DNA from: a virus
Direction: 5' to 3' (one strand)
DNA length: 24,681 nucleotides
Virus record (IMG/VR): IMGVR_UViG_3300001041_001516
Location: 1-24,681 of that record
This document shows, piece by piece, positions 1,633 to 21,437 of the stretch. Under the pieces are notes generated by a model. It saw nothing but the letters and a program-made list of their open reading frames with translations. It was not told the DNA's origin and ran no database searches. Within the stretch, counting starts at the first letter, position 1, and every line of letters begins with the position of its first letter. A program made the position numbers and the translations under genes.

Positions 1633-1734
1633 TTTGCGGAGAGAGAGGGATTATTTCTCCACCCTGTTTGTTTTACTATATATTTGATTATTAGATATAT
1701 AAACTTTTATAAAAACTAAAAATTTACCGCTTTC

Positions 1735-1818: not shown

Positions 1819-2190
1819 TCACGCAATACCCGCAATATTTTTCCTCTCGTTTTTTGAAAGGTTTTCAATTGTCCGCTGCTGTGATTCTATTATTGTAAGG
1901 AGCCGATCTTCCTTTTTCCTATACACCTCGGATGAAATTACATTCTCAATCACTTCTGGGATATCTTTCTTTTTCTCGGGATCACCCCTACCCGTCATTA
2001 ACCAGTCTGGGTTCACCCATTCAATATTTATGATGATATTTTTAAGAACCTCATAACCTGGTTTAGATCTTTTGTATTTGAGAGTTCCTCTCAAAGTTTC
2101 ATACTTGACCTTTGCTCTAATTGAGAAATCTGCCAAATTTTTACAGCCCTCTTTATCAACTATATATTGTAGCCTATCAAAAATATCCAC
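1819..2190 (-). CDS. CI-like phage repressor, HTH_XRE type without protease domain
   Basis: A 123-residue DNA-binding protein, probably the lysogeny repressor. The N-terminal half (about residues 2-70) has the form of Bacteroidetes XRE/CI repressors: DIFDRLQYIVDKEG, the helix-turn-helix around LADFSIRAKVKYETLRG, and the hallmark NPDWLMTGRGDP at 60-71. The C-terminal S24/LexA peptidase domain of classical CI proteins is missing. A short charged helix (residues 90-115, EDRLLTIIESQQ) takes its place and could dimerise. Without a self-cleaving domain, RecA-driven cleavage is unlikely, so induction probably depends on an antirepressor such as the product at 4491. The start is GTG at 2190, since an upstream stop leaves no room for another. 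It is divergent from the Cro-like gene, and its start codon lies inside an operator-like site, which suggests autoregulation. Confidence 0.85.
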   Translation of the reverse strand: MDIFDRLQYIVDKEGCKNLADFSIRAKVKYETLRGTLKYKRSKPGYEVLKNIIINIEWVNPDWLMTGRGDPEKKKDIPEVIENVISSEVYRKKEDRLLTIIESQQRTIENLSKNERKNIAGIA

Positions 2191-2251
2191 GCTATTTAAT
2201 TTTTATTAACGTTATTATATTTGCTTTTACCGTAGATATCCACGATATTTG
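2183..2251. promoter_or_regulatory. divergent operator/promoter region of the lysogeny switch
   Basis: Three related 13-base sites are seen: ATATCCACGCTAT (2183-2195), TTATTAACGTTAT (2203-2215) and ATATCCACGATAT (2236-2248). The third is a near-perfect palindrome, ATATC-CAC-GATAT. For rightward transcription, TTTG at 2220-2223 is followed after 20 bases by GATATTTG at 2244-2251, one base off the Bacteroidetes -7 box and overlapped by the third site. TATATTTG at 2216-2223 is an alternative -7 box. Repressor bound here would block the early promoter. No clear leftward promoter was found. Confidence 0.6.
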
Positions 2252-2319
2252 CAAACGCTGTTTAACTGCTTTCGAAATTAAGCAAAATAAATAATTAAAC
2301 AATTCAATTTCTATTAAAA

Positions 2320-2535
2320 ATGAAAAAAATGACATTCAAAGACTATGGATCTTCTCTATCTAACGAGAGAACAGAATTTATCAAACGAATTGCTGAAATA
2401 ACTACCTGTGATCCAACCACTGTGTCACGGTGGATTAGTGGTGAATTTAAACCATCGAGACGGAGACGGGCAATTATTGCCGAAGAAATGGGTATTCCGG
2501 AAGAAACACTTTTCCCGGAGACAACAAAAGCATAA
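2320..2535 (+). CDS. Cro-like small HTH DNA-binding protein
   Basis: This 71-residue protein is almost entirely a helix-turn-helix domain. The core runs through RIAEITTCDPTTVSRWISGEFKPSRRRR (residues 23-51), where TTVSRWISG is the recognition helix, followed by IAEEMGIPEETLF, typical of small XRE/Cro proteins. It is the first rightward gene after the operator region and divergent from the repressor. By position it is the Cro counterpart that would shut off the repressor during lytic growth. The role comes from position and fold; no direct evidence of its binding site is visible. Confidence 0.75.
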   Translation: MKKMTFKDYGSSLSNERTEFIKRIAEITTCDPTTVSRWISGEFKPSRRRRAIIAEEMGIPEETLFPETTKA

Positions 2536-2539
2536 TATC

Positions 2540-3109
2540 ATGGATATTTTTGCTAATACAGAATTTTACACTACTCCGGATGGATGTGTCATGATTAAAC
2601 CTGAAAATGGACCTGTGTGGGAATTAAAAGAGACTGGAATAAATTCCCGTCATTTTATTCAGCAGTTCATTGATTATCTCAGGACATTTCATGTGGAAGC
2701 ATTTGAGGCGCTTTGCAAAGAGTATTCGGCAAAAGAACCCAACAGGTACAATTACGAATATTGGATTGTGAGCAGGTTCATCAGATGCAACGCCGGAGAA
2801 TATGACAGGTTGAATTCTGACATCGATCACAATGGCCGTTTACAGTTCGAAGAAGTACGTTGCCCTCTCAGGGGAGAATGTAAACTGGAAAACATCTGTT
2901 GCAAACCTAAATTCACCTCTGGTCTTTCGCACAGAGAAACTGAAATACTGCGACTCATTGTAGGCCATTACGAAGCCGTTGAAATTGCTGATAAACTTCA
3001 TTTAAGTCCTCACACCGTAAACAATCACCGCCGGAATATTCATATCAAGACATCTACGCGATCTGTGGCTGAATTGGTGGATTACTGGCATAGAAATAAC
3101 CTAAAATGA
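2540..3109 (+). CDS. LuxR-type HTH transcriptional regulator with N-terminal unknown domain and Cys cluster
   Basis: The C-terminal third of this 189-residue protein is a LuxR/GerE DNA-binding domain: LSHRETEILRLIVGHY (129-144), then EIADKLHLSPHTVNNHRRNI (149-168). The N-terminal 105 residues match no sensor domain I recognise. Just before the HTH is a cysteine cluster, C108-x5-C114-x5-C120-C121, that could bind a metal or sense redox. I chose ATG 2540, five bases after the Cro-like gene, because the longer open frame would overlap that gene heavily. The stop overlaps the next start as ATGA. Bacteroidetes phages and conjugative elements often carry such LuxR-type proteins early in their operons. 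It may switch on later phage genes, but no target site was found. Confidence 0.8.
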   Translation: MDIFANTEFYTTPDGCVMIKPENGPVWELKETGINSRHFIQQFIDYLRTFHVEAFEALCKEYSAKEPNRYNYEYWIVSRFIRCNAGEYDRLNSDIDHNGRLQFEEVRCPLRGECKLENICCKPKFTSGLSHRETEILRLIVGHYEAVEIADKLHLSPHTVNNHRRNIHIKTSTRSVAELVDYWHRNNLK

Positions 3110-3399
3110 AAAAAGAAATCCTGATTAAAGAAAAACTGGTTCTCGTGATTTGTGGAAATGAATTTGCCATACTGCAACGAGAGGCCAATGACGATGGAAT
3201 GATCGGCGTTACATTCTCCATGCCCGTAACACCCAAAACAGCCGATTTACTGGACCAATCGGGTATCGTGACAGTACAACAGTTTTCCGGAGATGGAATC
3301 CTGATTTTTAAATGGCGTGACTTCTACCAGATCCCGCTGATGATTGAATTAATCATTGATATCCTTGAAAAATATGAAACTGAACAGAATCTCTCCTGA
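3106..3399 (+). CDS. small unknown early phage protein
   Basis: I do not recognise this 97-residue protein. It is soluble, with mixed strands and helices, and has no Cys motif or membrane segment. The N-terminal KLVLVICGNEFAIL is strand-like and the C-terminal PLMIELIIDILEKYE is a helix. It starts on the ATGA overlap with the LuxR-type gene, so it is translated from the same early mRNA and may work with that regulator. Its 3' end overlaps the following 48-residue membrane peptide. Confidence 0.6.
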   Translation: MKKEILIKEKLVLVICGNEFAILQREANDDGMIGVTFSMPVTPKTADLLDQSGIVTVQQFSGDGILIFKWRDFYQIPLMIELIIDILEKYETEQNLS

Positions 3400-3520
3400 T
3401 TGGCTTGAGGTGCTCATTTATGCCTCTTTTGTCGTTCTCCTTGCACTCGTCGCTCTATTCCTGATACTCCTTCAGATATTTACCGAAAAAGATATTATCA
3501 TTTGCCAGGGTGCCTGGTAA
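3374..3520 (+). CDS. 48-residue single-span membrane peptide
   Basis: A short frame from ATG 3374 to TAA 3518-3520 encodes 48 residues: a short charged N-terminus (MKLNRISPDW), one long hydrophobic helix of about 25 residues (LIYASFVVLLALVALFLILL), and a short polar tail. It overlaps the preceding gene by 26 bases in another frame and fills a gap that otherwise has no gene, which supports a real, translationally coupled gene. A role as holin-like, superinfection-exclusion or signalling peptide is possible, but nothing in the sequence decides it. Confidence 0.5.
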   Translation: MKLNRISPDWLEVLIYASFVVLLALVALFLILLQIFTEKDIIICQGAW

Positions 3521-3535
3521 TAAAACATCACTGCT

Positions 3536-3844
3536 ATGGACTTTTCTGTACATCGTCTCACCAATGAGGCTGATTTGCTTTCTTATCACGCACAAATGGG
3601 ATCCGCGCAATTCTGGACATTTGGGAATAAACTGTTCAGCATGGTTTTGCTGATGAAACCGGGAGAGACTTTCCGGGTAAATAATCTGGTGAAAGATAAA
3701 AACAGGGACCTGTTTATCAAATTATTATGTTGGTTCATTCAATCGGGAGCAACACCCGACTTCATTTTCAATGATTCCTTTACTGTCTTTGGCCGACAAA
3801 AAGAGGTTTTTAAAATTACACAGGAAAAAAAATCTGAAAAATGA
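3536..3844 (+). CDS. unknown early phage protein
   Basis: A 102-residue protein that I do not recognise. It looks like a small alpha/beta fold: SAQFWTFGNKLFSMVLLMKPGETFRVNNLV reads as two strands, followed by a helix LFIKLLCWFIQSG and a Lys/Glu-rich tail. It follows the membrane peptide by 15 bases in the same direction, so it belongs to the early operon. The next 225 bases contain no credible gene and are strongly structured. Confidence 0.55.
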   Translation: MDFSVHRLTNEADLLSYHAQMGSAQFWTFGNKLFSMVLLMKPGETFRVNNLVKDKNRDLFIKLLCWFIQSGATPDFIFNDSFTVFGRQKEVFKITQEKKSEK

Positions 3845-3877
3845 TTGCTATCTCAAATATTATGCTCATATTTGCAT

Positions 3878-4080
3878 TGCCTTACATAAACTCGGAGTGG
3901 GAAACCGCTTCAATACTGAGAGCGGATTTTTTATGTCCGCATCTCAACCAATATTGGTACAGTACCCCCTCGTGGACGCTTAATGGCGCCACTGCTCCGA
4001 GTGAGTGTAAGGCAGAGGGAAAGGCTGTACCTCTTTTTATTTTACAGCCTATACAGCAAATTATCTGTAATGCCTTACAC
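3878..4080 (+). ncRNA. structured RNA region, candidate translational switch upstream of the gene at 4070
   Basis: A long stem pairs 3878-3886 (TGCCTTACA) with 4006-4014, then 3890-3897 (ACTCGGAG) with 3995-4002, with a TAA/GAG internal loop between, enclosing about 90 bases. Inside are smaller hairpins: CCGCT/AGCGG at 3905-3925 and GGTAC/GTACC at 3956-3966. A further perfect 8-bp hairpin pairs 4022-4029 with 4043-4050. The start of the next gene, 4071-4080 (TGCCTTACAC), repeats the 5' arm, so the shared 3' arm (4005-4014) could instead pair with it over 10 bp and hide the ATG at 4070. The two pairings exclude each other, as in an attenuator or riboswitch. It could also be a free-standing small RNA. 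Confidence 0.5.
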
Positions 4081-4387
4081 AGAATCAATTTGTTTGCAAG
4101 CGAAAAACAGTACCTTACAAGCAACGCCTTGTGCAGCGACATGCACCGCATCCACGCGCAACCACTCCAACAGCGCAGACAATCCCTTCGTTCAGCAGTT
4201 TATCTCACTCGTGGACACAGTTTATCCCGGTCTCACAAAAATCCGTTTCAAGAAGACCGGACAGGTTTATGTGGTGCGGGTAAAAAAAAGCCGGCGAACC
4301 TTTTCGGCAAAAGGATATACTCCACAGAACGCCGCACGCAACTTCATTTCATCATTCAATTATCAAGAATTTCTGCTACCGGTGTAA
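4070..4387 (+). CDS. small basic unknown protein
   Basis: A 105-residue protein I cannot name. The first 40 residues are Thr/Ser/Cys-rich and look unstructured. The rest is a compact alpha/beta unit, NPFVQQFISLVDTVYPGL then IRFKKTGQVYVVRVKK and RRTFSAKGYTPQNAARNF, strongly basic and plausibly nucleic-acid binding (two strands, then a helix). I chose ATG 4070 because the longer open frame begins inside the structured region and its N-terminal extension reads as low-complexity noise. The start codon lies in a repeat that can pair with upstream RNA, so translation may be controlled. Confidence 0.55.
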   Translation: MPYTESICLQAKNSTLQATPCAATCTASTRNHSNSADNPFVQQFISLVDTVYPGLTKIRFKKTGQVYVVRVKKSRRTFSAKGYTPQNAARNFISSFNYQEFLLPV

Positions 4388-4425
4388 TGCCGGAAGCCTG
4401 GTCTTCGTGTGGCCAAACAAAAAAA

Positions 4426-4454
4426 GCAGTTGCAGGATCATTCCCCGCAACTGC
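4426..4454. repeat. 8-bp perfect hairpin between early genes
   Basis: GCAGTTGC at 4426-4433 and GCAACTGC at 4447-4454 form a perfect stem with a 13-base loop. There is an A run before it and no T run after it, so it would act as an intrinsic terminator only on the minus strand. On the plus strand it may be an mRNA processing or stability element between the genes at 4070 and 4491. Confidence 0.4.
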
Positions 4455-4490
4455 CGCTAACTCTTATATTAATTTTTAAAATCCAGAAGA

Positions 4491-5072
4491 ATGGAAACAA
4501 TTCAACCAATGGTGGTTACTTCCGAATTTCAAGTAACAAAGGTAAACAATGTTTCGATCACTTGTATCGAAAATAACAACAAAAGATTCATCCCTATTCG
4601 TCCAATCTGTGAGGCGCTGGGAATAGATGCCAAAGTACAAAGAACAAAGATTCAGGAGGATGAAATTCTGAGTTCAACTGGGGTGCTGAGCACCTCAGTT
4701 GCAGCAGATGGAAAAGAGCGTGAAATGCTATGTTTACCCCTCGAATTTGTATTTGGGTGGCTCTTCACCATCAACCCGAAAAACGTATCTCCCGAGGCAC
4801 GCGAATCAGTCACCCGTTACAAACTGCAATGTTACCAGGCACTGTTCGAGTATTTCACCGAACCACAAACATTCCTCAAGCAGAAACAGGAACAGATGGA
4901 GCGCATGGTGACAATTTACCAGGAAAAACAGGCAAACTTCAAGAATGCCCGCAAGGAAATGGACGATGCCAAAAAAGAACTCAATGAAATAATGGCCATC
5001 ACCATTGATGACTGGAGAGCCAATAATCGGCAACTTATTATCCCGTTCGAGTCAGCTGAAATTGAAAACTGA
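4491..5072 (+). CDS. phage antirepressor, P22_AR_N domain
   Basis: This 193-residue protein carries the N-terminal domain of P22-type antirepressors (P22_AR_N, residues about 25-125). Landmarks are FIPIRPICEALGIDAKVQRT, a variable loop with LSSTGVLSTS, and LPLEFVFGWLFTINPKNV followed by ESVTRYKLQCYQALFEYF. The usual C-terminal ANT or KilA-C domain is absent. Residues 125-175 instead form a charged coiled coil (KQKQEQMERMVTIYQEK...). Antirepressors bind and inactivate phage repressors, so this is the likely trigger for induction here, where the repressor has no self-cleavage domain. It is preceded by a hairpin and an AT-rich leader, and is followed by the primase after 74 bases with another hairpin. 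Confidence 0.85.
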   Translation: METIQPMVVTSEFQVTKVNNVSITCIENNNKRFIPIRPICEALGIDAKVQRTKIQEDEILSSTGVLSTSVAADGKEREMLCLPLEFVFGWLFTINPKNVSPEARESVTRYKLQCYQALFEYFTEPQTFLKQKQEQMERMVTIYQEKQANFKNARKEMDDAKKELNEIMAITIDDWRANNRQLIIPFESAEIEN

Positions 5073-5087
5073 CACGAACACAAAACG

Positions 5088-5115
5088 CCCGATGCAGCTT
5101 TGTTGGTGCATCGGG
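5088..5115. repeat. 9-bp perfect hairpin between antirepressor and primase
   Basis: CCCGATGCA (5088-5096) pairs perfectly with TGCATCGGG (5107-5115) around a 10-base loop, in the gap before the primase ATG. No T run follows, so it is probably not a full terminator. It could partly reduce readthrough or protect the upstream mRNA. Confidence 0.5.
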
Positions 5116-5146
5116 AACAAATGAACCGGAGAAACAAACAAAGGCA

Positions 5147-8100
5147 ATGAGAATAAGCAAAGAAGATAAGGAACGCATCCTGCAAGCTGCAGAAGGGAAA
5201 TTACTCGAGGTGATTGAATCTGAAACATCACTCACCAAACGCGGTGCCAGTTTCAAAGGGAAATGCCCCAGCTGCGAAGAAGACAAGGGATTTGAATATG
5301 CGCCTGCAAAGAATATTTTCAAGTGTTTCAAATGTGGCTTTGGCGGAAATTCTCCTGTTGACTTCTACATGAAGCTTGGAAAGACATATCCGGAAACCCT
5401 TCAGCTTCTTGCCCATCAATTTAATATTTTCATAGAACAGGAGGATGAGATCCAACCTGCCAAAAAGACGGCAAAGAACAATTACTGCAAACAACTGCTT
5501 CAACAGTCAGGGCTGACCGAATCGGATGTTCAGGCAAAAGTGTTTTTACAGGATGAAAACAAAACCACCACTGTTGGCAGGGTATTCCGGTCGGGGACCA
5601 TCAACAGCCGTGCCGAGATCATCGACGGGAATGATGTCATCATAGAGTATTATAACCTGGAAGGTTCACCGGTGATGTACGAACAATATCACAAAGGAAA
5701 ACCAACCGGAAAAATGAAAGAATACTTCCGGGTCCGTTGGCAGTTCCCGCAAGAACATCTCGACAAAGAGGGAAAACCTTTTAAATACAGAAGCCCGTCG
5801 GGAAGCGGATCATTCATTTATATCCCGCAACGGATCCGCGAAGTGTACCAGGCTGGCACCGAGATCCCGCGACTATTTATTCAGGAAGGAGAGAAGAAAG
5901 CCGAAAAAGCATGCAAGCATGGCATTCCATCCGTGGCCATCTCAGGTATTCACAATATTGCGAGCAATGGCCGGCTTCATGAAGATCTTGTTAATCTGAT
6001 ATCCCGCTGTAAGGTCAAAGAACTGGTACTGCTATTTGATGCAGACTGGAATGACATATCTTCCAACTTGGGGATCAATGATCTGGCCGACCAGCGCCCC
6101 CGTAACTTCTTCTATGCCGCAAAGAATTTCAAGGAATATGCCAATCAGCTTAAAAATAGTCGCAACATTTATCTGGAGCTGTACATCGGCAATGTACAGA
6201 AGAATGAGAATAACGACAAAGGAATAGATGATCTGCTGGCCAACACCCTCAAAGGGAACGAAGATGATTTGAAAAATGACATCGATTACCTGATCAATGA
6301 ACGATCACTCACCGGTAAATACCTTCAATTACACAAGATCACCACTATTTCCGACGGGAAGTTGCTTGAACTTTGGTCGCTTCACAATGCATCTGAGTTT
6401 GCTAAAAGACATCGGGATATCCTGCAGGAATTGCCTGAGTTTAGAATCGGTAAACATCGGTGGCGTTTTAATGCTTCCGGAGAGATTGAGAGCGCTCAAC
6501 CCATCGAGGCCGATGAAAAGTTTTGGGAAGAGATTGAACGTGCAGACAGGTCGGGTAATGTAAGAACAGAATATCGATTTCGGTATGAACGATGTTTCCG
6601 TTTCCTGCAGAATAGGGGTTTTTCCCGATTTCAGAAACCGGATGGTGAATATGATTATATCCTTACCGAACATCCATTTGTGAAAACAGTGTACAAGACT
6701 GATGATATTCGGGACTTCGTGAAAGATTTCACACGCGAGATTGCTAACGAAGAGGTTCTTGAAATGTTGCACCGGGGTGGTCCGCAGTTTTTAGGACCAG
6801 AAAAACTGTCTAACCTGGTGAAGACAATACCGGCACTGGAGGACCCACAGCGTGACAGGCAAATGTTCTATTTTTCCGAGAACTACTGGGAAGTGAAAAA
6901 AGACAGTATCGAAGAGCACACCTATAGTGAAATATCTCATCAGATATGGGAAGATCAGCGGCATGACATTCCGGCACGACGTACGGATCGGCTGATTACG
7001 GTAACACATGACGAGGAAAACAATGTATTCAATTACACACTGAGCAAAGCCGGCCAAACGTGTCATTTCCTTCAGTTTCTCATCAACACTTCAAATTTCA
7101 CTTGGAGAAAAGAAAAACATGGTGAAGAAATACCGGAGGAAGAACTTGAGGAAAACAGGGCACATCTCATATCAAAACTTTGCGGTATTGGATACATGAT
7201 GATGTCGGCCAAAGACCGAAGCGTCAGCCGGGCGCTTGTGGCCATGGATGGCAAACAGTCCGAGGTTGGTCTTTCAAATGGTCGCTCCGGTAAATCGATT
7301 ATTGGTGAAATGTTCAAACAGGTGCTCCCCGCCATTTCTATTAACGGGAAATATAAAGATATTGATGCCGACAACTTCCTTTGGGATGAAATGACTGTAA
7401 AAACTAAGATTGTTTTTATAGATGATGTCAGGACTAATTTCCCTTTTGAATTTCTTTTTGCCAACATCACCGGTGACTGGTCGGTGAATTATAAGGGTAA
7501 TCGTCGTGCCACATTCCCGTTTCACAGATCACCCAAAATTTACATAACTACAAATCATGCCTTGAACGGGGAAGGATCCTCATACAATGACCGGCAGTGG
7601 AAAATTGCTTTTTCCGATTATTATAATGACAGCCATAAGCCGGTTGATGACTTCGGCGTTCTTTTCTTCGATGATTGGGATTTTGAGCAATGGAACTTGC
7701 TATGGAATCTCCTGGCAGAATGCGTGCAGCTCTATCTTCGTTTTGGCGTGGTACAATCTCCATCGGAAAGGATTGAAAACCGACAATTGAGACAATCCAT
7801 GGGTGAGGACTTCCTTGCCTGGGCAGAGGAATATTTCTCCAGTGCAGAGAAACTGAATGTGAGGATACCACGCAAAGAAATCTATGACAACTTTGTGGAG
7901 TATGCCCCGGAACAGCGGCGATATACGGGTGCCACCATTTTCAAAAAGAAAATTCAGAAATATTGCCATTGGAAAGGGTTAATCTTTAATCCTCACAAGT
8001 TCGATCCTACTACCGGCGATCCCATGTTTTTTGACAAAGATGGCCGGCCGGATTATGATGACAAGTCTGGTGGAATAGAATACTTCATGCTTGGTTCTAT

Positions 8101-8176
8101 AGAGCAGTATGCCGCTGTGGCTGAAAAGCTGAATATTGAGATACCATTCATACCTAATGATGATAAACCATTTTAA
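5147..8176 (+). CDS. phage primase-helicase (CHC2-type zinc finger, Toprim, SF3-type ATPase)
   Basis: A 1009-residue replication protein. A DnaG-like zinc finger comes first: C40-x2-C43 and C60-x2-C63 within GKCPSCEED and FKCFKCGFGG. A Toprim-like catalytic part follows, with EGEKKAEKA near residue 247 and the acidic motif LLFDADWND near 297. After a long middle region comes a P-loop ATPase with Walker A NGRSGKS near 711-717, Walker B IVFIDD near 755-760, and a sensor-like KIYITTNHA near 800. The order resembles phage P4 alpha and D5-type proteins, which make RNA primers and unwind DNA as rings at the origin. No polymerase is seen nearby, so the phage probably borrows the host enzyme. Start ATG 5147 fits, with no good upstream alternative. 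Confidence 0.88.
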   Translation: MRISKEDKERILQAAEGKLLEVIESETSLTKRGASFKGKCPSCEEDKGFEYAPAKNIFKCFKCGFGGNSPVDFYMKLGKTYPETLQLLAHQFNIFIEQEDEIQPAKKTAKNNYCKQLLQQSGLTESDVQAKVFLQDENKTTTVGRVFRSGTINSRAEIIDGNDVIIEYYNLEGSPVMYEQYHKGKPTGKMKEYFRVRWQFPQEHLDKEGKPFKYRSPSGSGSFIYIPQRIREVYQAGTEIPRLFIQEGEKKAEKACKHGIPSVAISGIHNIASNGRLHEDLVNLISRCKVKELVLLFDADWNDISSNLGINDLADQRPRNFFYAAKNFKEYANQLKNSRNIYLELYIGNVQKNENNDKGIDDLLANTLKGNEDDLKNDIDYLINERSLTGKYLQLHKITTISDGKLLELWSLHNASEFAKRHRDILQELPEFRIGKHRWRFNASGEIESAQPIEADEKFWEEIERADRSGNVRTEYRFRYERCFRFLQNRGFSRFQKPDGEYDYILTEHPFVKTVYKTDDIRDFVKDFTREIANEEVLEMLHRGGPQFLGPEKLSNLVKTIPALEDPQRDRQMFYFSENYWEVKKDSIEEHTYSEISHQIWEDQRHDIPARRTDRLITVTHDEENNVFNYTLSKAGQTCHFLQFLINTSNFTWRKEKHGEEIPEEELEENRAHLISKLCGIGYMMMSAKDRSVSRALVAMDGKQSEVGLSNGRSGKSIIGEMFKQVLPAISINGKYKDIDADNFLWDEMTVKTKIVFIDDVRTNFPFEFLFANITGDWSVNYKGNRRATFPFHRSPKIYITTNHALNGEGSSYNDRQWKIAFSDYYNDSHKPVDDFGVLFFDDWDFEQWNLLWNLLAECVQLYLRFGVVQSPSERIENRQLRQSMGEDFLAWAEEYFSSAEKLNVRIPRKEIYDNFVEYAPEQRRYTGATIFKKKIQKYCHWKGLIFNPHKFDPTTGDPMFFDKDGRPDYDDKSGGIEYFMLGSIEQYAAVAEKLNIEIPFIPNDDKPF

Positions 8177-8204
8177 AAATAGTAACAAATAAAACAGGAT
8201 TAAC

Positions 8205-8420
8205 ATGGCACGAAAAAAGGGAATTATAACCACGTCCGAAGCTGCAGACTCCCGTGAAACTGCAATAAAAGTTGGGAGTGAAGTGAAACAAAAATTCAAG
8301 GATCTGATTCCGCACCGTATTGATAACAACACGGTGATTCTGATCCACGCACACCAGGATCATGCCGCACAAATCAACCGGTTCTTACAGAAACTCGAAA
8401 GAGATAGACTGAATTATTGA
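8205..8420 (+). CDS. small unknown protein
   Basis: A 71-residue charged protein I do not recognise. It begins with a basic stretch (MARKKG) and ends in HAHQDHAAQINRFLQKLERD, which reads as a helix rich in His and charged residues. It follows the primase-helicase by 28 bases, so it is probably co-transcribed. A small accessory replication or DNA-binding role is possible, but nothing shows it directly. Confidence 0.55.
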   Translation: MARKKGIITTSEAADSRETAIKVGSEVKQKFKDLIPHRIDNNTVILIHAHQDHAAQINRFLQKLERDRLNY

Positions 8421-8431
8421 GTACTAATGAG

Positions 8432-8686
8432 ATGAGTAACATGGGAACAAGAAAAAAAAACACACAGGCAGAGATAGACAGCCAATATGTTATAGTCGGG
8501 ACATATAAAGAGACTGGGAAGCGACAAATGATATCGCGGAATTTTAGCACTAAAAGTGAAGCTGAAAAAACAATTAAAGCAGTTTTTCAGACTTCAAAAT
8601 ATAAGAAAATTTACAAGTATGTAAAAGCATGCGAATTAAAATACGCACAATCAAAATTTCCTGATTTATATATCAGACATCGTTGA
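8432..8686 (+). CDS. small basic unknown protein
   Basis: An 84-residue, Lys-rich protein with a compact central part: QYVIVGTYKETGKRQMISRNF (two strands), then KSEAEKTIKAVFQTSKYKKIYKYVK (helix and strand). The pattern suits a small regulatory or nucleic-acid-binding fold, but I do not recognise a family. I used ATG 8432, although a TTG at 8417 overlapping the upstream stop, and another ATG at 8441, are open in the same frame. Confidence 0.55.
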   Translation: MSNMGTRKKNTQAEIDSQYVIVGTYKETGKRQMISRNFSTKSEAEKTIKAVFQTSKYKKIYKYVKACELKYAQSKFPDLYIRHR

Positions 8687-8709
8687 ATTAATAATGAAAC
8701 AAAGCAATT

Positions 8710-8901
8710 ATGGATCACGCATACATACTCCAAAACAAGGACCGCGAAGCTGTAGCGATAGCTATAGAAGAGGACGAAGCAATGAAATGGTGTAGAGAAA
8801 ATGAAGGCACGTATCGCATGGTACCTCTCCATTTAAGTGCCAGGATCGAGATCAAGATCATGGCGCCAACAATGCCGAAGGAACTCTTAAAAGGATGGTA
8901 G
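8710..8901 (+). CDS. small unknown protein
   Basis: A 63-residue protein, not recognised. The first half, HAYILQNKDREAVAIAIEEDEAMKW, is strand then acidic helix; the second half is more basic. Its stop lies within a few bases of the start of the ASCH-like gene, so the two are translationally linked. Confidence 0.5.
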   Translation: MDHAYILQNKDREAVAIAIEEDEAMKWCRENEGTYRMVPLHLSARIEIKIMAPTMPKELLKGW

Positions 8902-8903
8902 TT

Positions 8904-9359
8904 ATGAAAACATATACATTAACTTTAAGTAGAAACTTCCCGGCAACACATCCCAGGAAAGGTGAAGAAACAGGGTTTATTGACAATATTCTGGCGTTTA
9001 AAAAGATCCACACCATTCGTAGCAATTACGAATTTTGGCGCAAACGATTCGATGAGATTGAAAAAGGCAATGCTTACCTTTCATTAAGATATTGGGAAGG
9101 AAAACCATACCGGTCTAATCAGGTAGAATTTAAGAGGCTTATAAAAGAAGATGGTATTGGGTTGCAGTGTATTGATTTATCTATATTTAGCGACTTAGGA
9201 CTCTGTTTTTTAAATACAAAAAACAGCGCAAAGAGGATAAGCCCAATTTGTATTGCCAAAAACGACGGTCTCTCATCTAATGATTTCAGGAAATGGTTCA
9301 AAAACTACAGTCTGAATGAACCGATGGCAATCATTCATTTCACAAAATTCAGATATTGA
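8904..9359 (+). CDS. ASCH/PUA-like domain protein
   Basis: A 151-residue protein resembling Bacteroidetes phage proteins with an ASCH-like (PUA superfamily) fold. Support is the N-terminal strand KTYTLTLSRNFPATHPRKGE, then ILAFKKIHTIRSNYEFW, where a Lys followed by TIR is a common ASCH signature, and strand-rich AYLSLRYWEGKPYRS. ASCH/PUA domains bind RNA or modified bases. The gene ends two bases before the cytosine methyltransferase ATG, so its product may read, protect or act on the modified DNA, which is inference from position. ATG 8895 in the same frame is an alternative start. The fold call rests on short motifs only. Confidence 0.55.
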   Translation: MKTYTLTLSRNFPATHPRKGEETGFIDNILAFKKIHTIRSNYEFWRKRFDEIEKGNAYLSLRYWEGKPYRSNQVEFKRLIKEDGIGLQCIDLSIFSDLGLCFLNTKNSAKRISPICIAKNDGLSSNDFRKWFKNYSLNEPMAIIHFTKFRY

Positions 9360-9361
9360 CT

Positions 9362-11041
9362 ATGAAAAAAAAGAGTTACCTGACTGTAACAGATCAATTC
9401 TGTGGCGCCGGCGGATCATCGCAGGGCGTTCGAAGGCTGGCCCAAAACATGGGTGGAGGCTTGGAAGTAAAACTTGCTATGAACCACTGGGATTTGGCCA
9501 TAAAAACGCACAACACCAACTTCCCGGATACGGATCACGATTGTGCTGATGTTTCTGCCACAGATCCTCGTAGGTACCAGAGTACCGATATTCTTATAAC
9601 TTCTCCGGAATGTACGAATCATACCATTGCAAAGGGCGTGAGCAGGAAGTACCAGCTGACAAAAAATTTATTTGGGGATCTTACTATAGACCCTGGAGCC
9701 ATCCGCTCACGCGCAACCATGTGGGATGTTCCCAGATTTGCTGAAATTCACAACTACAATCTGATCATTGTTGAAAATGTTGTTGAAGCAAGAGTCTGGA
9801 TTATGTGGGATGCCTGGTTGCATGCAATGCACAATCTTGGATACACGCACAAATGCGTATATCTTAATTCAATGCATGCTCTTCCAACACCGCAGAGCCG
9901 GGATCGAATGTATGTTGTGTTCTGGAAAAAAGGGAACCCTGTCCCCGATTTGGATTTTCGTCCAAAATCATTTTGTTCAAATTGCGGGAAGGAAGTGGAA
10001 TCTATACAAAGCTGGAGGAACCCTCGAAAGAAATTCGGAAAATACAAGCAGCAATACGATTATCGGTGTGCCAATTGTGGCAGCATCGTAGAGCCGTACT
10101 ACTATGCAGCGTTCAACATCATAGACTGGTCCATTCCTAGTGTTCGAATTGGTGACAGATCAAAACCATTGTCTCCAAACACAATCGAACGCATTAAACA
10201 CGGACTCCTGAAGCAAAAAGATTCATCGTTCATAATCTACACCGACCATTCTAGCAATTTGAAACGATCGTCTGGCATTACCGATAAAATGTTCACTCAA
10301 GCCACCCGCCAGGTTGCCGCGTTTGTAACAAAGGGCAGTTACGGAGGTGATATCACTCCCCTGTCTTCACCTCAGTTTACGATGACCACACAGAATAATT
10401 TCGGAGTTGTCGGCATGCCGGCCATGATCGATGAACAAAACAAAAACGGGAAAAGTAGATCCTTGAATGAGTTTGTCTCTATAGTCTTAGCTGGTGGAAA
10501 TCATCATGGCCTGTTAGGTATGCCTATGATCATTAAAAACTACGGCGGAGGATTTAATCCAAAACTCGCAGGTTTGTCACTTTATAAAGCAATCGACACT
10601 GTGACAACTGCCGGAACGTATGGTGTATTAGGCATGCCATTCATGGTTGAAAATAGAGGGCAATCACGCTCAAGAGAGATCGATCAGCCCATGAGCACAC
10701 AAACGAGCATAGTCACACATGGCATTCTTTCCACTGAGGCTGTGAACGCTTTCTTTTCCTACTATTATGGAAAAGCACAATCATCCGGAATGGAAGATCC
10801 GATCGGAACCATGTCAACGCGTGACCGGGTTGCTATAGTATTAAGCTCTCCGGAAAATGTCAAGCTGGAAGATTGCACATACAGGATGATTCAGCCTCAC
10901 GAAGTACAGGCCGCCATGGCCTTCGAGAACGATTACATTGTATTGGGATCCGGAAGAGACAAAGTTAAACAACTTGGAAATGCTGTAACGCCACCGGCAA
11001 TGACCTGGTTGCTTGAGCGTGGGATGGGAACTTTTAATTAA
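9362..11041 (+). CDS. phage C5-cytosine DNA methyltransferase with inserted zinc ribbon and repeat-rich recognition region
   Basis: This 559-residue enzyme transfers a methyl group from S-adenosylmethionine to C5 of cytosine in DNA. Motifs in order: I, DQFCGAGGSSQG (11-22); IV, with catalytic Cys in TSPECTNHT (C84) instead of the usual PCQ; VI, IVENV (136-140); VIII, QSRDRMYVV (178-186); X, KQLGNAVTPP near the end. A zinc ribbon is inserted after motif VIII (C205, C208, C236, C239). The long target-recognition region (about 330-500) holds five copies of a short unit ending GVVGMP, GLLGMP, GVLGMP or variants. The phage may mark its own DNA against host restriction; no partner endonuclease is seen. 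I used ATG 9362, since the upstream TTG overlaps the previous stop. Confidence 0.9.
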   Translation: MKKKSYLTVTDQFCGAGGSSQGVRRLAQNMGGGLEVKLAMNHWDLAIKTHNTNFPDTDHDCADVSATDPRRYQSTDILITSPECTNHTIAKGVSRKYQLTKNLFGDLTIDPGAIRSRATMWDVPRFAEIHNYNLIIVENVVEARVWIMWDAWLHAMHNLGYTHKCVYLNSMHALPTPQSRDRMYVVFWKKGNPVPDLDFRPKSFCSNCGKEVESIQSWRNPRKKFGKYKQQYDYRCANCGSIVEPYYYAAFNIIDWSIPSVRIGDRSKPLSPNTIERIKHGLLKQKDSSFIIYTDHSSNLKRSSGITDKMFTQATRQVAAFVTKGSYGGDITPLSSPQFTMTTQNNFGVVGMPAMIDEQNKNGKSRSLNEFVSIVLAGGNHHGLLGMPMIIKNYGGGFNPKLAGLSLYKAIDTVTTAGTYGVLGMPFMVENRGQSRSREIDQPMSTQTSIVTHGILSTEAVNAFFSYYYGKAQSSGMEDPIGTMSTRDRVAIVLSSPENVKLEDCTYRMIQPHEVQAAMAFENDYIVLGSGRDKVKQLGNAVTPPAMTWLLERGMGTFN

Positions 11042-11064
11042 TAACCACTTCTAGACAATAAAAA

Positions 11065-11376
11065 ATGAAACAGAATAAGATCATCGTAGCGGTGCATCCA
11101 GATGAACAGGTAAGGCGCAAGATAATACAGCGCATTCTCGTGAAGTTAAGTTTTGCCAACACACCAACAGATGCATCAAAACTCATCAGGCCGACAGTTC
11201 ATGATTTCGACCTGGCAGAATGTTATTACGTATGTGCCGCTACTTACAATTTGCGGGACAGTCCCATTACCCGGCAAAGATTGTTTGAACTGGCCGCTCG
11301 CGGTATTGCCGTGATCATCGGGACAAAGCGTTTACAGGCCGAATTTGAATTTATCAGTGAAGCAGTATATGAATGA
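11065..11376 (+). CDS. conserved phage protein of unknown function
   Basis: A 103-residue protein that I recall as recurrent in Bacteroidetes prophages but without known function. It has alternating strands and helices (KIIVAVHPDEQVRRKIIQ, then a region around LAECYYVCAATYNLRDSP, then FELAARGIAVIIGTK), as in a small Rossmann-like fold. No catalytic motif is clear. It follows the methyltransferase by 23 bases and is probably the last gene of the early/replication operon, since a hairpin lies just downstream. Confidence 0.6.
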   Translation: MKQNKIIVAVHPDEQVRRKIIQRILVKLSFANTPTDASKLIRPTVHDFDLAECYYVCAATYNLRDSPITRQRLFELAARGIAVIIGTKRLQAEFEFISEAVYE

Positions 11377-11486
11377 CCGGATACTATAACATCTCACGAC
11401 TCAAGCCTGCGCTGATAGCGTGGGCTTGTTTATTAACTATGAGCGCCGACGGCGCGAATACCTTATCTCTTGCGCTCGGCATTTAG
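11373..11486 (+). CDS. possible 37-residue hydrophobic peptide
   Basis: An open frame starts on an ATGA overlap with the previous stop and runs to TAG 11484-11486. It contains a hydrophobic core, LKPALIAWACLLTM, like a signal or membrane segment. Against it being a gene, the strong hairpin at 11402-11428 lies wholly inside it and is better explained as a terminator. Confidence 0.25.
   Translation: MTGYYNISRLKPALIAWACLLTMSADGANTLSLALGI
11402..11432 (+). terminator. probable intrinsic terminator of the replication operon
   Basis: CAAGCC (11402-11407) pairs with GGCTTG (11423-11428), and an inner CGCT/AGCG extends the stem around a GAT loop, followed by TTTATT. It sits 26 bases after the gene at 11065 and would end the early mRNA before the noncoding repeat region. 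The T run is short, so termination may be partial. Confidence 0.5.
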
Positions 11487-11682
11487 CCGGGCGCATATCG
11501 TATTCCCGGGAACATCGTTTTTCCCTTGCACCCTTTTTCCAGGGATTGAAAGAAATGGAACAATTGTACTATGGCAAAAATCGAGACTGAAGAGGGCGCA
11601 AAAATCACGTAGACAGACATATATATATTCTTTTTTTTTAATATTTATATTTACAAAAAGGACTAATAGAAAAATTAAAATG

Positions 11683-11923
11683 AAAATCGTGCAATCGTGC
11701 ATAACCTGAAAATGAAAGTATATATCACTGAAATATAATGATTTATAAGCGTACTATTTTTGCACGATTTTGCACGATTTGCACTTTTCCGCACGATTTT
11801 CAAAAAAGTACGAAAAACATCATTATTGTACAAAATAGTACGGAAAAAGTACGCCATTATTTCATTGAATCATAGAGCATTAACAATCACGTTGTATATA
11901 AACCGCACGATTGTACTATTTTT
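11683..11923. repeat. AT-rich iteron-like repeat cluster, candidate replication origin
   Basis: GCACGATT-type repeats occur at 11762, 11772, 11791 and 11905 on the plus strand and in inverse form (AATCGTGC) at 11685 and 11693. Two are back to back with a 10-base period, and a degenerate copy sits at 11781. A second motif built on GTAC next to A/T runs occurs at 11751, 11808, 11828, 11838, 11850 and 11913. Together they fill a gene-free, AT-rich 550 bp downstream of the replication genes. Clustered short repeats in AT-rich DNA are typical of phage and plasmid origins. No initiator protein is identified, and the region could instead be a multi-site regulatory region. Confidence 0.5.
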
Positions 11924-11963
11924 CAGCGATGATCCGTCCAAGCCACATTTGTAAACATCATTA

Positions 11964-12028
11964 ATATCCACGTTATTATTGCATTTTACCAAATATTTAT
12001 TGTATATTTGAATGATTATTAACGTTTT
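11964..12028 (+). promoter_or_regulatory. promoter with repressor-type operators for the gene at 12034
   Basis: ATTG at 11978-11981 and TATATTTG at 12003-12010 are 21 bases apart, a good Bacteroidetes promoter (first base of the -33 box off). It is flanked by ATATCCACGTTAT (11964-11976) and TTATTAACGTTTT (12016-12028), which match the sites in the repressor/Cro region. Repressor bound here would be expected to block the promoter. Confidence 0.6.
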
Positions 12029-12586: not shown

Positions 12587-13051
12587 ATGAAAAAGATATC
12601 ATTCGATTTTAAAACGAACCTGCCTGGACTTTCAATGGTATATGCAATTCCACCATCAAGTTTGAAACGGGTGCGTCGTGATTATACACACGAAAATTTT
12701 TTCCTTGAACTTGTTAATCTGGAACAAATCATTGAGTTTTATTTTACAGACGACACGGCACAATTCAAACAGGTTGGTGAAAATAACGGGTACAAAACGG
12801 AGCTGATTCTGGTTGCACCAAAGGATCAACCCGTGAATAGAAACATTTTCAGAGAACTACTGGCTGGTTATTGGTTTGTGTTATTCGTGGATCAAAACAA
12901 TTACATAAGGCTGATAGGTACCGAAGAGAATCAGTTGCGTTTTTCTCTTGAAGCATCCACTTCCGGGAGGAATCAGGTCAATTGTTCTTTTGCCGGATAT
13001 CAGGACGAACAGGCCCTCTTCATTGAGAATTCGGGTATCAACATTCTATAA
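12587..13051 (+). CDS. unknown phage protein, possibly structural
   Basis: A 154-residue, beta-rich protein. Landmarks are VRRDYTHENFFLELVNLEQIIEFYF and a pair of strands around GYWFVLFVDQNNYIRLIG. It resembles, from memory, small proteins of unknown role found near head genes of Bacteroidetes phages. It is 58 bases after the previous gene, ends 20 bases before an intrinsic terminator, and lies just before the late operon, so it belongs to the transcript from the 12003 promoter. Confidence 0.55.
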   Translation: MKKISFDFKTNLPGLSMVYAIPPSSLKRVRRDYTHENFFLELVNLEQIIEFYFTDDTAQFKQVGENNGYKTELILVAPKDQPVNRNIFRELLAGYWFVLFVDQNNYIRLIGTEENQLRFSLEASTSGRNQVNCSFAGYQDEQALFIENSGINIL

Positions 13052-13070
13052 TATACTTCTATCAAACAGA

Positions 13071-13107
13071 GACAGCAAATGGCTCATGTCCTTTTGCTGT
13101 TTTTTTT
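13071..13107 (+). terminator. intrinsic terminator before the late genes
   Basis: ACAGCAAA (13072-13079) pairs perfectly with TTTGCTGT (13093-13100), followed by seven more T. This is a standard rho-independent terminator, 20 bases after the gene at 12587. Confidence 0.8.
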
Positions 13108-13122
13108 ATATGGATACTTTTG
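13093..13122 (+). promoter_or_regulatory. late promoter overlapping the terminator
   Basis: TTTG at 13093-13096 (inside the 3' arm of the terminator) and TACTTTTG at 13115-13122 are 18 bases apart. TACTTTTG matches the Bacteroidetes -7 box exactly. Transcription would begin around 13127-13130, just before the protease ATG at 13140, so the late operon gets a fresh start where the earlier transcript ends. Confidence 0.55.
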
Positions 13123-13139
13123 CTCAAAATCATAAGATT

Positions 13140-14246
13140 ATGGCTAAAACGCTAGAGTTGATTGGAGAAGTGGGACGTTGGGGTATCTCAATGCAATTCG
13201 TCAAAACAATGATGGATGATCTGGGAAAAGGTCCAATTGTCGTGAAATGCACTTCTCTGGGGGGAGATCTCAATCATGCCCTCAAAATTAAGGAAATGTT
13301 CGAAACACATGGTGACGTGACGCTCGAGTATGTTGGCTTCAACGCATCGGCTGCAACGATCATTGGACATGGTGCCGTAAAATCACGTATCCGTGAGGAC
13401 TCTTTTTATCTTATTCACAAACCATCTATCTGGGTTGATGCCTGGGGAAACATGAATGAAGATGACCTGGATCAGACAATCAATGATCTGATTGCTCAGA
13501 AAAAGGAAGCTGAAGTGTTTACCTTATCCGTCGCTCAGGACTATGTGAAGAGTAGAGGTATTGACTTTAAAACCGTGATGAACCTCATGAAGGAATCCCG
13601 CTGGTTATCGGCCAAGGAAGCTGTTGAGCTTGGTTTAGTAGATGAACTGGTACCGGTTAAAACTAAAGAAAAGGTAGCTGTCTCTAATGAGACTGCGGCA
13701 AAGATGAAAGCGCTGGATCTTCCGGTACCCGTAATGAAAGAAACAGAGCCTATTGAAATCACTACTGAGATGGTGAACAAAATGGATGAAAAAGACAAAA
13801 AAAGCCTTTTTCAAATGCTGATGGATATTTTTTCACCCAAAAATAAAACCGAAATGAAGAAAGATTTTCAACAAATCAACACCCTGCTGAAAGTGGAAGG
13901 CTTTGAAGAAAAAGAGGGAAACGTAATTGTTTCAATCGATCAAATGAAGTCGCTCGATGCAGAGATCAAAACGATCACCGAAAATGCCGCAAAGGTATCG
14001 GAAGCGACAAATGCACTGCAATTGGTTCTCGACCTGCTCGATGACCTGGATCCTACTGTGAAAGCATCCGCTGATGCAGCTGCAAAAGTAGCAGCTGTGA
14101 AAGCAAAATTAGCCGCTCGCCCGGCAGCTGCTGCAGAAAATCCGCAAGGAGGTTCATCGAATCCGGCAGAAGTAAAGGACGAAACGGACTGGAACACTAT
14201 TGACAATCTTCCTCATAACAAGATTGCTGACGCCGAAATCATTTAA
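13140..14246 (+). CDS. ClpP-like prohead protease fused to a scaffold-like C-terminus
   Basis: Residues 1-175 form a ClpP/Sppa-type serine protease: ELIGEVGRWGI at the start, TSLGGDLNHA, the nucleophile S70 in GFNASAATI, H93 in YLIHKPSIW and D168 in GLVDEL. Such proteases trim the capsid scaffold during head maturation. Residues 175-368 are low-complexity and coiled-coil-like, rich in Lys, Glu and Ala (AAKVAAVKAKLAAR), as in scaffold domains joined to the protease. The total of 368 residues suits a protease/scaffold fusion, and the capsid gene follows after 23 bases. I chose ATG 13140, just after the predicted late transcript start; ATG 13110 in frame would lie before that start. The serine, histidine and aspartate all look intact. 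Confidence 0.85.
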   Translation: MAKTLELIGEVGRWGISMQFVKTMMDDLGKGPIVVKCTSLGGDLNHALKIKEMFETHGDVTLEYVGFNASAATIIGHGAVKSRIREDSFYLIHKPSIWVDAWGNMNEDDLDQTINDLIAQKKEAEVFTLSVAQDYVKSRGIDFKTVMNLMKESRWLSAKEAVELGLVDELVPVKTKEKVAVSNETAAKMKALDLPVPVMKETEPIEITTEMVNKMDEKDKKSLFQMLMDIFSPKNKTEMKKDFQQINTLLKVEGFEEKEGNVIVSIDQMKSLDAEIKTITENAAKVSEATNALQLVLDLLDDLDPTVKASADAAAKVAAVKAKLAARPAAAAENPQGGSSNPAEVKDETDWNTIDNLPHNKIADAEII

Positions 14247-14269
14247 TCAACCCATTAATTCGCAATAAT

Positions 14270-15217
14270 ATGGCAATTACTACTACCGACATCGTAACCG
14301 AATATGGTGCATATTACATCAATTCCGGACAAAACATGGCGCGCCTGAAACGACTTCTGCTCTTTGGACGCGAAACAACCAAGCTGGCAACCAAGATAAA
14401 GACGGATGATACCGTTTATCGCCTGGCTCAATCTGTAATGACACGCCTTGTGCAGTCATTTCAGAAATCATGGACTCCCAAGGGAGATTTGACCTTCACG
14501 CCCAATCCGATTGAACTTTTCCATCTGAAGGTGGATTTTGAAGTTTATCCGGACGATGTGGAAAACAACTGGCTTGGTTTTCTTGCCAGCAATGATCTGA
14601 GTCGCAAAGAATGGCCTCTCATCCGTTACATTCTGGAATCTCACTTCTACGGTCAGATCAATACTGACATGGAAGAACTTGAATATTACAAAGGTGTGTT
14701 CACTGCCCCCACAGCGGGAACTGCAGGTATCTCCGGCCAGTCGATGAACGGATTGAAAACCTTCCTCACAAGTGACAAGGTGAACCACGTGACCATGGCA
14801 GCTTTGGATGCCGCAACAATCTATGATCAGATTGAAACTTTCTACGAAAGTATCTCTGAACAGTATCAGAACTCGAAAATGATCATCGGAATGGCTCCGA
14901 AGTGGAAACGTGCCTTCATGAAGGACAAACGTTCACTTGGATATTACGATATCACCAGTCCTTCCCAGATCGACGACACGCTCGATTTCTCCCCCGCCAG
15001 AGTAGTTGGTCTTCCTTCCATGATCGGTACCGATGACATCTGGGCAACACCGGTTGACAACTTCCTGCATATCACCAAAAAAGGTGAAAATGCAGCAAAG
15101 GTGAAGATCGAGGAATCGAAACGAGTGGTGAACATGCTTACCGACTGGTGGGAAGGTCTTGGCTTCGGTATCAACGAAGTGGTCTGGACGAACGTGGCCG
15201 AAGTGGTTATTCCTTAA
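14270..15217 (+). CDS. major capsid protein
   Basis: A 315-residue head protein, placed right after the protease/scaffold gene as expected for a major capsid subunit. It has no catalytic motif and is rich in mixed alpha/beta sequence, with Trp- and Tyr-rich parts (SWTPKGDLTFTPNPIELFHL, WEGLGFGINEVVWTNV). I recall similar proteins as major capsid proteins of Bacteroidetes siphophages, probably HK97-like fold, although this cannot be proven by eye. No cleavable N-terminal scaffold part is obvious, consistent with the separate scaffold domain of the protease. Base composition and codon use look like the surrounding late genes. Confidence 0.7.
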   Translation: MAITTTDIVTEYGAYYINSGQNMARLKRLLLFGRETTKLATKIKTDDTVYRLAQSVMTRLVQSFQKSWTPKGDLTFTPNPIELFHLKVDFEVYPDDVENNWLGFLASNDLSRKEWPLIRYILESHFYGQINTDMEELEYYKGVFTAPTAGTAGISGQSMNGLKTFLTSDKVNHVTMAALDAATIYDQIETFYESISEQYQNSKMIIGMAPKWKRAFMKDKRSLGYYDITSPSQIDDTLDFSPARVVGLPSMIGTDDIWATPVDNFLHITKKGENAAKVKIEESKRVVNMLTDWWEGLGFGINEVVWTNVAEVVIP

Positions 15218-15244
15218 TTTTTGAATCTCTAAAACAAACGTATT

Positions 15245-15841
15245 ATGGCTGAAAATTGTATAAGTTTAGCTGATATTGACCACCAACTCAGTTGTGAGGG
15301 TGGCAATATGGCCGGTATTGTTCCCGAGATCATCTTCGGTTACCACGAAGACGTTGCCGTATGGCCAACAGAACCGGTGCCTACTATCGACGGGACCACC
15401 CAGGTGGTTACTCCTGTAGAACTGGAAGCTGCAGGAGCGCTGGTGGGGAATTTGACAATGAAGCCCGGCACAAGGGCCTTCAAGTTCAAGTTTACCGAGG
15501 ATGCCGGTAATTTCAGTATCGTGCCGGTTGGAGAAGTGGATGGCACTCACTTCGAATATAACCTGAACATTGTGAAAGCCCGTATTTCACAAACTATCCT
15601 CGGATTTATGAATGCTGCCAGTCAAAGGAAAATGTTTTTTATCGTCCCGGATGAAAACGGTGAATATTACCTGATGGGTAACAAGCGCCGTGGAGCCACA
15701 TTTGTCACGGGAGGCGATGGAGCTGTTACCGGCACCACGGCAAGCGACAGAAACCAGGCATCCATGCAGTTCAGGTTCCGTACCGGAAAAGCCTTGGTAT
15801 ATACAGGACTGGTTGAAGAACTTCTTGTGCTGGTTCCTTAA
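15245..15841 (+). CDS. phage structural protein, possibly head decoration or tail tube
   Basis: A 198-residue, beta-rich protein: strands around AFKFKFTEDAGNFSIVPV, KMFFIVPDENGEYYLMG and QFRFRTGKALVYTGLVEEL. It lies 27 bases after the capsid gene and is followed by an intrinsic terminator, so it is probably made in large amounts like the capsid protein. The even strand spacing suits either a decoration protein or a tail tube; I cannot decide. No signal peptide or Cys motif is seen. Confidence 0.55.
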   Translation: MAENCISLADIDHQLSCEGGNMAGIVPEIIFGYHEDVAVWPTEPVPTIDGTTQVVTPVELEAAGALVGNLTMKPGTRAFKFKFTEDAGNFSIVPVGEVDGTHFEYNLNIVKARISQTILGFMNAASQRKMFFIVPDENGEYYLMGNKRRGATFVTGGDGAVTGTTASDRNQASMQFRFRTGKALVYTGLVEELLVLVP

Positions 15842-15865
15842 CTTCCTCTTTTTCTCATACACTTC

Positions 15866-15899
15866 AAAAGTACCTTCCATCAGAGGAGGTACTTTTTTT
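15866..15899 (+). terminator. intrinsic terminator after the capsid module
   Basis: AAAAGTACCT (15866-15875) pairs perfectly with AGGTACTTTT (15887-15896), followed by more T. A 10-bp stem with a T run is a standard rho-independent terminator. It would separate the highly expressed capsid genes from the packaging genes. Confidence 0.85.
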
Positions 15900-15967
15900 G
15901 TCCTTTCGGCGCACGTTTTTCAGCACTAATTTTAACCGCAAATAAATACTCACTAAATTATAATCAA

Positions 15968-16807: not shown

Positions 16808-17385
16808 CACTCGTTACATTTGGTGAATTACCAAAAGAAACTCCGTGTCAGGAGGGTAGAATGCAGCCCGAAGTGTTAGACACTTCGGAGTCTGCGATCT
16901 ACCTTACTGCAGAAGAATCATTGCTCACACAGCGGCTCGGAGTCATTTCAGAGGGGGAAACAAAACACTTTTGGAGTTTTGGTAATTTCAATATGATGCG
17001 CCTGGTTTTCTGGATCCTAGAGCAAACAGGTCCGGCAGACATCCTGCTCAGTACGTACTCAATCAGTCCGAAAACATTGCAGGGTGTAATGAATCGTAGA
17101 GAAAAAGGCATTATCAGGGATATCCGTTTTATCGTGGATAATCGTGTCAGATCGCTTTCTCCAAAACCGTTCGCGCTGATGGTAAGTAATTTTGATTATC
17201 GGTGCATCTCAATTCATGCAAAGGTGGCCTGTATCTGGAATAATAAATGGCACATTTCTGTTGTAACAAGTCAGAATGCAACTGATAATCCTAAATGGGA
17301 ACGAGGAACAATTTTCACGGACAAGACAATATTTGAATTCGATAAAAAAGTATTGGAAGATGCATTTCTCAGAGGAACAACTTAA
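16804..17385 (+). CDS. PLD-like (single HKD motif) protein in the packaging module
   Basis: The 193-residue protein has one half of a phospholipase D (HKD) active site: H138-A-K140 in SIHAKVACIWNNKW, then S156-Q-N158 and E166 in VTSQNATDNPKWERG. Single-HKD members such as Nuc and BfiI cut nucleic acids as dimers, so a nuclease role is plausible. A long first half (FGNFNMMRLVFWILEQTGP...) reads as a regular alpha/beta unit. It lies directly before the small pre-terminase gene. GTG 16804 overlaps the previous stop; a second start, ATG 16861, is preceded by AGGAGGG, an unusually good Shine-Dalgarno for Bacteroidetes. The FGELP near the N-terminus makes me favour the longer form. The substrate is unknown. 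Confidence 0.65.
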   Translation: MTLVTFGELPKETPCQEGRMQPEVLDTSESAIYLTAEESLLTQRLGVISEGETKHFWSFGNFNMMRLVFWILEQTGPADILLSTYSISPKTLQGVMNRREKGIIRDIRFIVDNRVRSLSPKPFALMVSNFDYRCISIHAKVACIWNNKWHISVVTSQNATDNPKWERGTIFTDKTIFEFDKKVLEDAFLRGTT

Positions 17386-21379: not shown

Positions 21380-21437
21380 ACATCACACCCTCCTTATCAC
21401 ACTCGATACACACTATTTATATAATTGGAATGGCAAC

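Follow-up and report, generated by a model that had tools for sequence, protein, structure and literature searches.

The two clusters of 13-bp sites that lie about 10 kb apart in the window analysed here (a 24,681-nt stretch of viral DNA) are probably operators of the prophage's own immunity switch, through which one repressor would directly close both the early switch and the late promoter. The notion of one repressor for two operons goes back to an earlier note on this DNA and is supported by the present analysis, the candidate binder being the CI-like protein encoded at 1819-2190, the Cro-like protein encoded at 2320-2535, or both. It fits best with a motif that is nearly restricted, across the genome, to these two places and lies on both promoters, with a terminator-like hairpin between the two units, and with the recurrence of the layout in two relatives. 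If it is true, the lysogen silences its structural genes by direct repression.

When extended in its own genome (G000:C23), the window is found to be the left part of a 41.5-kb prophage (1636..43136) of a Bacteroidales host. The second copy of the attachment core overlaps a tRNA-Ser-like gene, read by eye from 43120 onward; a tRNA scan finds none in the window, the attR side lying beyond it. An integrase-like ORF (41833-42996, minus strand) adjoins the right prophage end, and nearly all genes between the two ends read rightward. The early block (2320-11376) encodes the Cro-like helix-turn-helix (HTH) protein, a LuxR-type regulator, an antirepressor-like protein (4491-5072, PHROG 524), a primase and a cytosine methyltransferase. 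Beside the second promoter lies a GCACGA/GTACG repeat array whose role as an origin is only a proposal; a similar array is seen in MT836778, upstream of the homologous late gene. Capsid and terminase functions are assigned tentatively to members of the late operon on the basis of gene order and size, and a family search with the terminase-like ORF gave no match. The features are collected in Table 1.

Table 1. Features of the left part of the prophage, in window coordinates.
Feature	Position	Strand	Basis or remark
attL core, 17 bp, GCGGAGAGAGAGGGATT	1636..1652		Comparison of prophage ends; second copy at 43120
CI-like immunity repressor, 123 aa	1819..2190	-	PHROG 147 transcriptional regulator, E 7e-5
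Putative operator A1, ATATCCACGCTAT	2183-2195	+	Exact pattern match; over GTG start codon of repressor gene
Putative operator B1, TTATTAACGTTAT	2203-2215	+	Exact pattern match; immediately upstream of early -7 box
Early promoter -7 box, TATATTTG	2216-2223	+	Match to Bacteroidota consensus
Putative operator A2, ATATCCACGATAT	2236-2248	+	Exact match; perfect inverted repeat ATATC-CAC-GATAT
Cro-like HTH protein, first early gene	2320..2535	+	PHROG repressor families, E 6e-4; sub-threshold HTH matches in Pfam
Possible extra site, ATATCATGGATAT	2535-2547		Perfect inverted repeat; 14.3-15.6 bits with held-out matrix; overlaps LuxR-type gene start; uncertain
Early regulator, LuxR/GerE-type HTH	2540..3109	+	Pfam GerE, E 7e-12; PHROG 10300, E 3e-46
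Intrinsic-terminator-like hairpin	11402..11428	+	After early operon; 1 found vs 0.9 expected in shuffles; suggestive only
GCACGA/GTACG repeat array, proposed origin	11683..11930		Repeat search; similar array in MT836778
Putative operator A3, ATATCCACGTTAT	11964-11976	+	Exact match and held-out matrix
Late promoter -7 box, TATATTTG	12003-12010	+	Match to Bacteroidota consensus
Putative operator B2, TTATTAACGTTTT	12016-12028	+	Exact match and held-out matrix; at or just past expected transcription start
First late gene, conserved phage family	12034..12528	+	Homologs in 39 viral loci and four other genomes
Start of late operon (further ORF, head maturation protease, capsid-like, terminase-like, others)	12587..19939	+	Clp/head protease PHROGs

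The five sites were found exactly where they had been claimed: ATATCCACGnTAT at 2183, 2236 and 11964, and TTATTAACGTTwT at 2203 and 12016. All five 13-mers are oriented along the plus strand, and A2 alone is a perfect inverted repeat, the other four being imperfect. The same note had also spoken of boxes of one type at both places, and here, too, TATATTTG is seen at 2216-2223 and 12003-12010, both copies agreeing with the Bacteroides promoter consensus TAnnTTTG (as cited in PMC7366714); the octamer occurs five times in the window vs 1.35 expected. From left to right, the immunity region has A1 (2183), B1 (2203), the -7 box (2216) and A2 (2236), and the late gene is preceded by A3 (11964), the -7 box (12003) and B2 (12016). 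The outer pairs are spaced almost identically, at 53 bp (2183/2236) and 52 bp (11964/12016), or about five helical turns. Single matches of uncertain standing occur in the prophage at 2535, 17129 and 34553. A second short string, TTGC(A)TTTTACC, noticed post hoc, adjoins both clusters (2221 and 11979) where 0.02 copies would be expected in the window; it has 11 copies genome-wide.

The immunity region has the layout of a CI/Cro-type (XRE) switch, with a small HTH repressor gene (1819-2190, minus strand) divergent from a Cro-like gene (2320-2535, plus strand) and the repeated sites at 2183, 2203 and 2236 arranged around the 2216 box in the divergent gap. The repressor has no match in Pfam or NCBIfam, and a search of IMG/VR with its own sequence likewise gave none. 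Its family profile does find P2 C (E 0.0025) and 186 CI (E 0.0056). The AlphaFold model (mean pLDDT 79) consists of an XRE-type domain of five helices and, after it, a long C-terminal helix, and Foldseek relates it to SinR, 434 Cro, P22 c2 and P2 C, all with E >0.05 and probability near 1. According to this model, the 123 residues are taken up by the HTH domain and the single C-terminal helix, leaving out the peptidase domain of SOS-cleavable CI repressors; RecA-assisted self-cleavage is therefore not expected for induction, and the antirepressor-like gene at 4491-5072 may offer another route. The closest homolog of the repressor, in G258 (L057), was considered and set aside, as it has no matching prophage context and no similar sites.

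We infer that the CI-like repressor is the binder, that binding means repression, and that the late operon has no other gate. In the lysogen, the repressor would occupy A1, B1 and A2 and so block the early promoter at 2216; with A1 placed over its start codon, it probably blocks its own gene too. Bound at A3 and B2, which flank the 12003 promoter, it would likewise block the structural operon from 12034. Upon loss of the repressor, the early and late promoters would both open, and during lytic growth the Cro-like product may read the same sites.

This last step could be given far greater weight, with the Cro-like protein as the main binder at both promoters and a brake on early as well as late transcription during the lytic cycle; the CI-like repressor would then use only part of the sites, or others. 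We consider this unlikely. The Cro-like gene does carry an HTH signature, it is the gene immediately after the cluster, in the window as well as in the relatives L118 and L137, and operators in lambdoid phages are often common to Cro and CI. Set against this, A1 lies over the repressor's own start codon, as expected of repressor autoregulation, and a Cro acting at the late promoter would work against making virions, although neither point is decisive.

The positions of the sites bear also on whether the late sites are bound by an activator of the phage, such as the LuxR-type protein encoded at 2540-3109, that acts at both promoters. A3 does stand at about -48 of the late promoter, a usual position for an activator, and the LuxR-type gene is kept in the early module of many relatives. 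However, the core promoter either contains or precedes B1 and B2, and A1 covers the repressor start codon; such positions are typical of repression, and the matching cluster is in the immunity region, where operator sequence varies between phages. Activation is a quite improbable account of the two clusters.

Nor do we give much credit to segmental duplication, in which the late promoter segment would have been copied from the immunity promoter and the sites would be remnants without present function. The occurrence of TTGC(A)TTTTACC beside both clusters and a gapped alignment that joins the two regions would suit such an origin, but the A-type sites agree in 12 of 13 bases while their flanks are not alike. 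Sites, promoter and TTTTACC are ordered and spaced differently in the two regions, so no simple copy is involved; we hold the remnant reading to be very improbable.

The case for direct repression by one repressor draws further on how rare the sites are in pattern searches of the 3,749,613-bp genome. The 12-bp core TATYMACGNTWT has 27 matches, five of which are the reported sites; the other 22 amount to about 6 per Mb, so that about 0.002 would be expected in two 150-bp regions. The longer string TATTAACGTTWT has two copies genome-wide, one per cluster, and TATCCACGNTAT has six, of which three are at reported sites and three within host coding sequences. A host core match adjoining TTGCTTTTACC (C21:107818) was examined and falls within coding sequence. 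A held-out matrix, built from the three repressor-side sites only and scanned over the 41.5-kb prophage, gives 11964 a score of 18.25 bits, which ties with 2236 and is the top score outside the repressor region, and 12016 a score of 11.35 bits, about fifth outside that region. When the late region was shuffled 2000 times, the best held-out score was never reached. Symmetrising the matrix leaves 11964 at the top outside the repressor region and lowers the standing of 12016, the sum of the top two being reached in 4 of 2000. We regard 12016 as the weaker match, made convincing only by its nearness, its spacing and its uniqueness in the genome. The earlier note had called for such a weight-matrix and genome-wide count, reasoning that copies at chance frequency would tell against a common repressor; the motif is found far above chance. 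A chance likeness of AT-rich intergenic sequence is scarcely credible, since the genome-wide count already contradicts it: the window has an AT content of 58%, and two-mismatch near matches are frequent (57 vs 32 expected), yet the exact sites are nearly confined to two promoters in the whole genome, and the shuffles tell the same story.

Relatives were collected with the first late protein, giving 39 viral loci and a few genomes, and the layout of repressor, Cro-like gene and LuxR-type gene followed at a distance by the late gene is common to many of them. Two show weaker signs of the same sharing of sites, in our view moderate ones, at about 1% by shuffling each. In L118, two copies of RTATTTAATACTTTTTG lie in the repressor-cro gap, and elsewhere in 17 kb the sequence is matched best at the late gene (16454; 18 of 2000 shuffles, window-scan fraction 0.006). 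This late site is some 65-80 bp upstream of the -7 box and may not block initiation there. In L137, from Bacteroides stercorirosoris, TGAATGATATATAGTTCA and a partner with the half-site TGAnTnATAT lie between repressor and cro, and immediately upstream of the late -7 box is an 18-bp perfect palindrome, TGATTAATATATTAATCA, with the same half-site. Apart from the repressor gene and its gap, no place matches better than this palindrome (20 of 2000 shuffles), which stands out only under a palindrome model, the model-free scan fraction being 0.15. The operator sequences of L118, L137 and the window are mutually unlike, as would be expected if each were matched to the repressor of its own phage.

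A model-free comparison of repressor region and late promoter in about 14 other relatives turned up no convincing case of shared sites. L122 was borderline in that scan (0.04), and the high score of L129 was rejected, since by eye it came only from promoter-box similarity. With no clear motif common to their repressor regions and late genes, these relatives show that the arrangement does not hold throughout the family. L048, the only near-identical IMG/VR record, was discarded as independent evidence, being the same prophage sequence starting at window position 2329.

A comparison of late regions suggests how such an arrangement might be inherited. Starting at position -29 relative to the late ATG, L079 and L081 are 98.6% identical over 6.8 kb, and farther upstream no similarity is found; for L079/L137 and L137/L082 similarity starts at -28. 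With homology starting at -28/-29, the late promoter and operator belong to the early module that is exchanged among close Bacteroides relatives. This boundary, traced for L079 and L081 from their late regions, fits operators that have to stay matched to their repressor, and its location at the late transcription start suggests a route by which immunity could be swapped without losing late control. We tentatively suggest, as a possibility rather than an expectation, that some temperate phages of the Bacteroidota use the immunity repressor itself to gate the virion operon, a double lock with no dedicated late activator. The late promoter and operator would then be passed on as the distal end of the early/immunity module, and recombination at the late transcription start would swap repressor, replication genes, origin and late operator together, keeping lock and key matched. 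Gene control in temperate phages of the Bacteroidota is little described, and a literature search of incomplete coverage turned up no description of a two-lock arrangement for them; what is gained here is a set of concrete operator sequences, a defined candidate repressor and two promoters.

Among Bacteroides phages, the Hankyphage has a CI-like master repressor, RepCHP; when this repressor is silenced, most phage genes are expressed more strongly (PMC12135933). The Hankyphage is a transposable Mu-like phage, and the portion of that source drawn on here reports no phage operator sequences for RepCHP. P2 C, a 99-aa protein that binds directly repeated sites flanking the -10 box (PMC4752584), is with 186 CI among the nearest solved relatives of the window's repressor by profile, and is so by fold too; it differs in having one switch region with two 8-bp repeats, and its sequence similarity to the repressor is weak. 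The stoperators of L5-type mycobacteriophages are 13-bp asymmetric sites oriented with transcription, more than 20 in number, found at promoters and also away from them, many being intergenic and proposed to halt elongation (PMC9283540). The window's sites are also 13 bp long and all five face one way, but they are five rather than >20, occur at two promoters only and have partial palindromic symmetry. SPbeta MrpR is likewise a master repressor with a repeated element, the 15-bp SPBRE, at several phage promoters (PMC10516654), yet it is a former recombinase, in contrast to the small XRE/CI-type HTH protein here. In P1, a single immunity repressor, C1, again has operators spread across the phage genome, 22 dispersed sites with an asymmetric 17-bp consensus, and controls the late activator lpa (PMC8546580). 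The window resembles it in carrying the same operator far from the repressor gene (11964 and 12016, ~10 kb away); its sequences are unrelated, and instead of the many sites found with P1 C1 or SPbeta MrpR it has two clusters in 41.5 kb, besides uncertain single sites. We regard the system of the window as a probable case of dispersed-operator immunity of the P1 C1, SPbeta MrpR and L5 type, in a variation that involves only two promoters, one of which is the structural operon's own.

The GCACGA/GTACG array has a comparable counterpart in the relative MT836778, where it carries the string TTTATAAGCGTAC and sits upstream of the late-gene homologue, and further relatives have other repeat arrays in the same place (TGTAGTTTTT, TGTTGTT, GTAGGTCG and TGTAGAAAG). 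That the arrays at the early/late junction differ in this way between relatives suggests that the proposed replication origin has been swapped among them.

Features of the window outside the two operator clusters
Feature	Window	Locus L059	Location
GCACGA/GTACG repeat array	11683-11930	100-330	between early and late operons
Perfect inverted repeat ATATCATGGATAT	2535-2547		at LuxR-type gene start codon
Small ORF, then HTH-bearing protein	21186-21893		inside late region

The compared locus L127 illustrates that some relatives lack the shared operator layout; at 8380-8525, in its repressor-cro gap, it has different palindromes, TCGCAATCTATTGCGA and TTTAGAATGATTCTAAA, neither of which was seen at the L127 late gene. 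In a second locus, L126 (G349:C1:21000-40759), 15,384 of the 19,760 bases are N, so that the early region of that record is usable only via locus L079.

Both operator clusters of the window are adjoined by a second common string, TTGC(A)TTTTACC (2221-2231 and 11979-11990). Within the early operon, ATATCATGGATAT is a possible additional operator. As for the late-region ORF pair, PHROG supports only the HTH region of its second member, and the pair looks like a putative toxin-antitoxin system of the HicA/HicB type.
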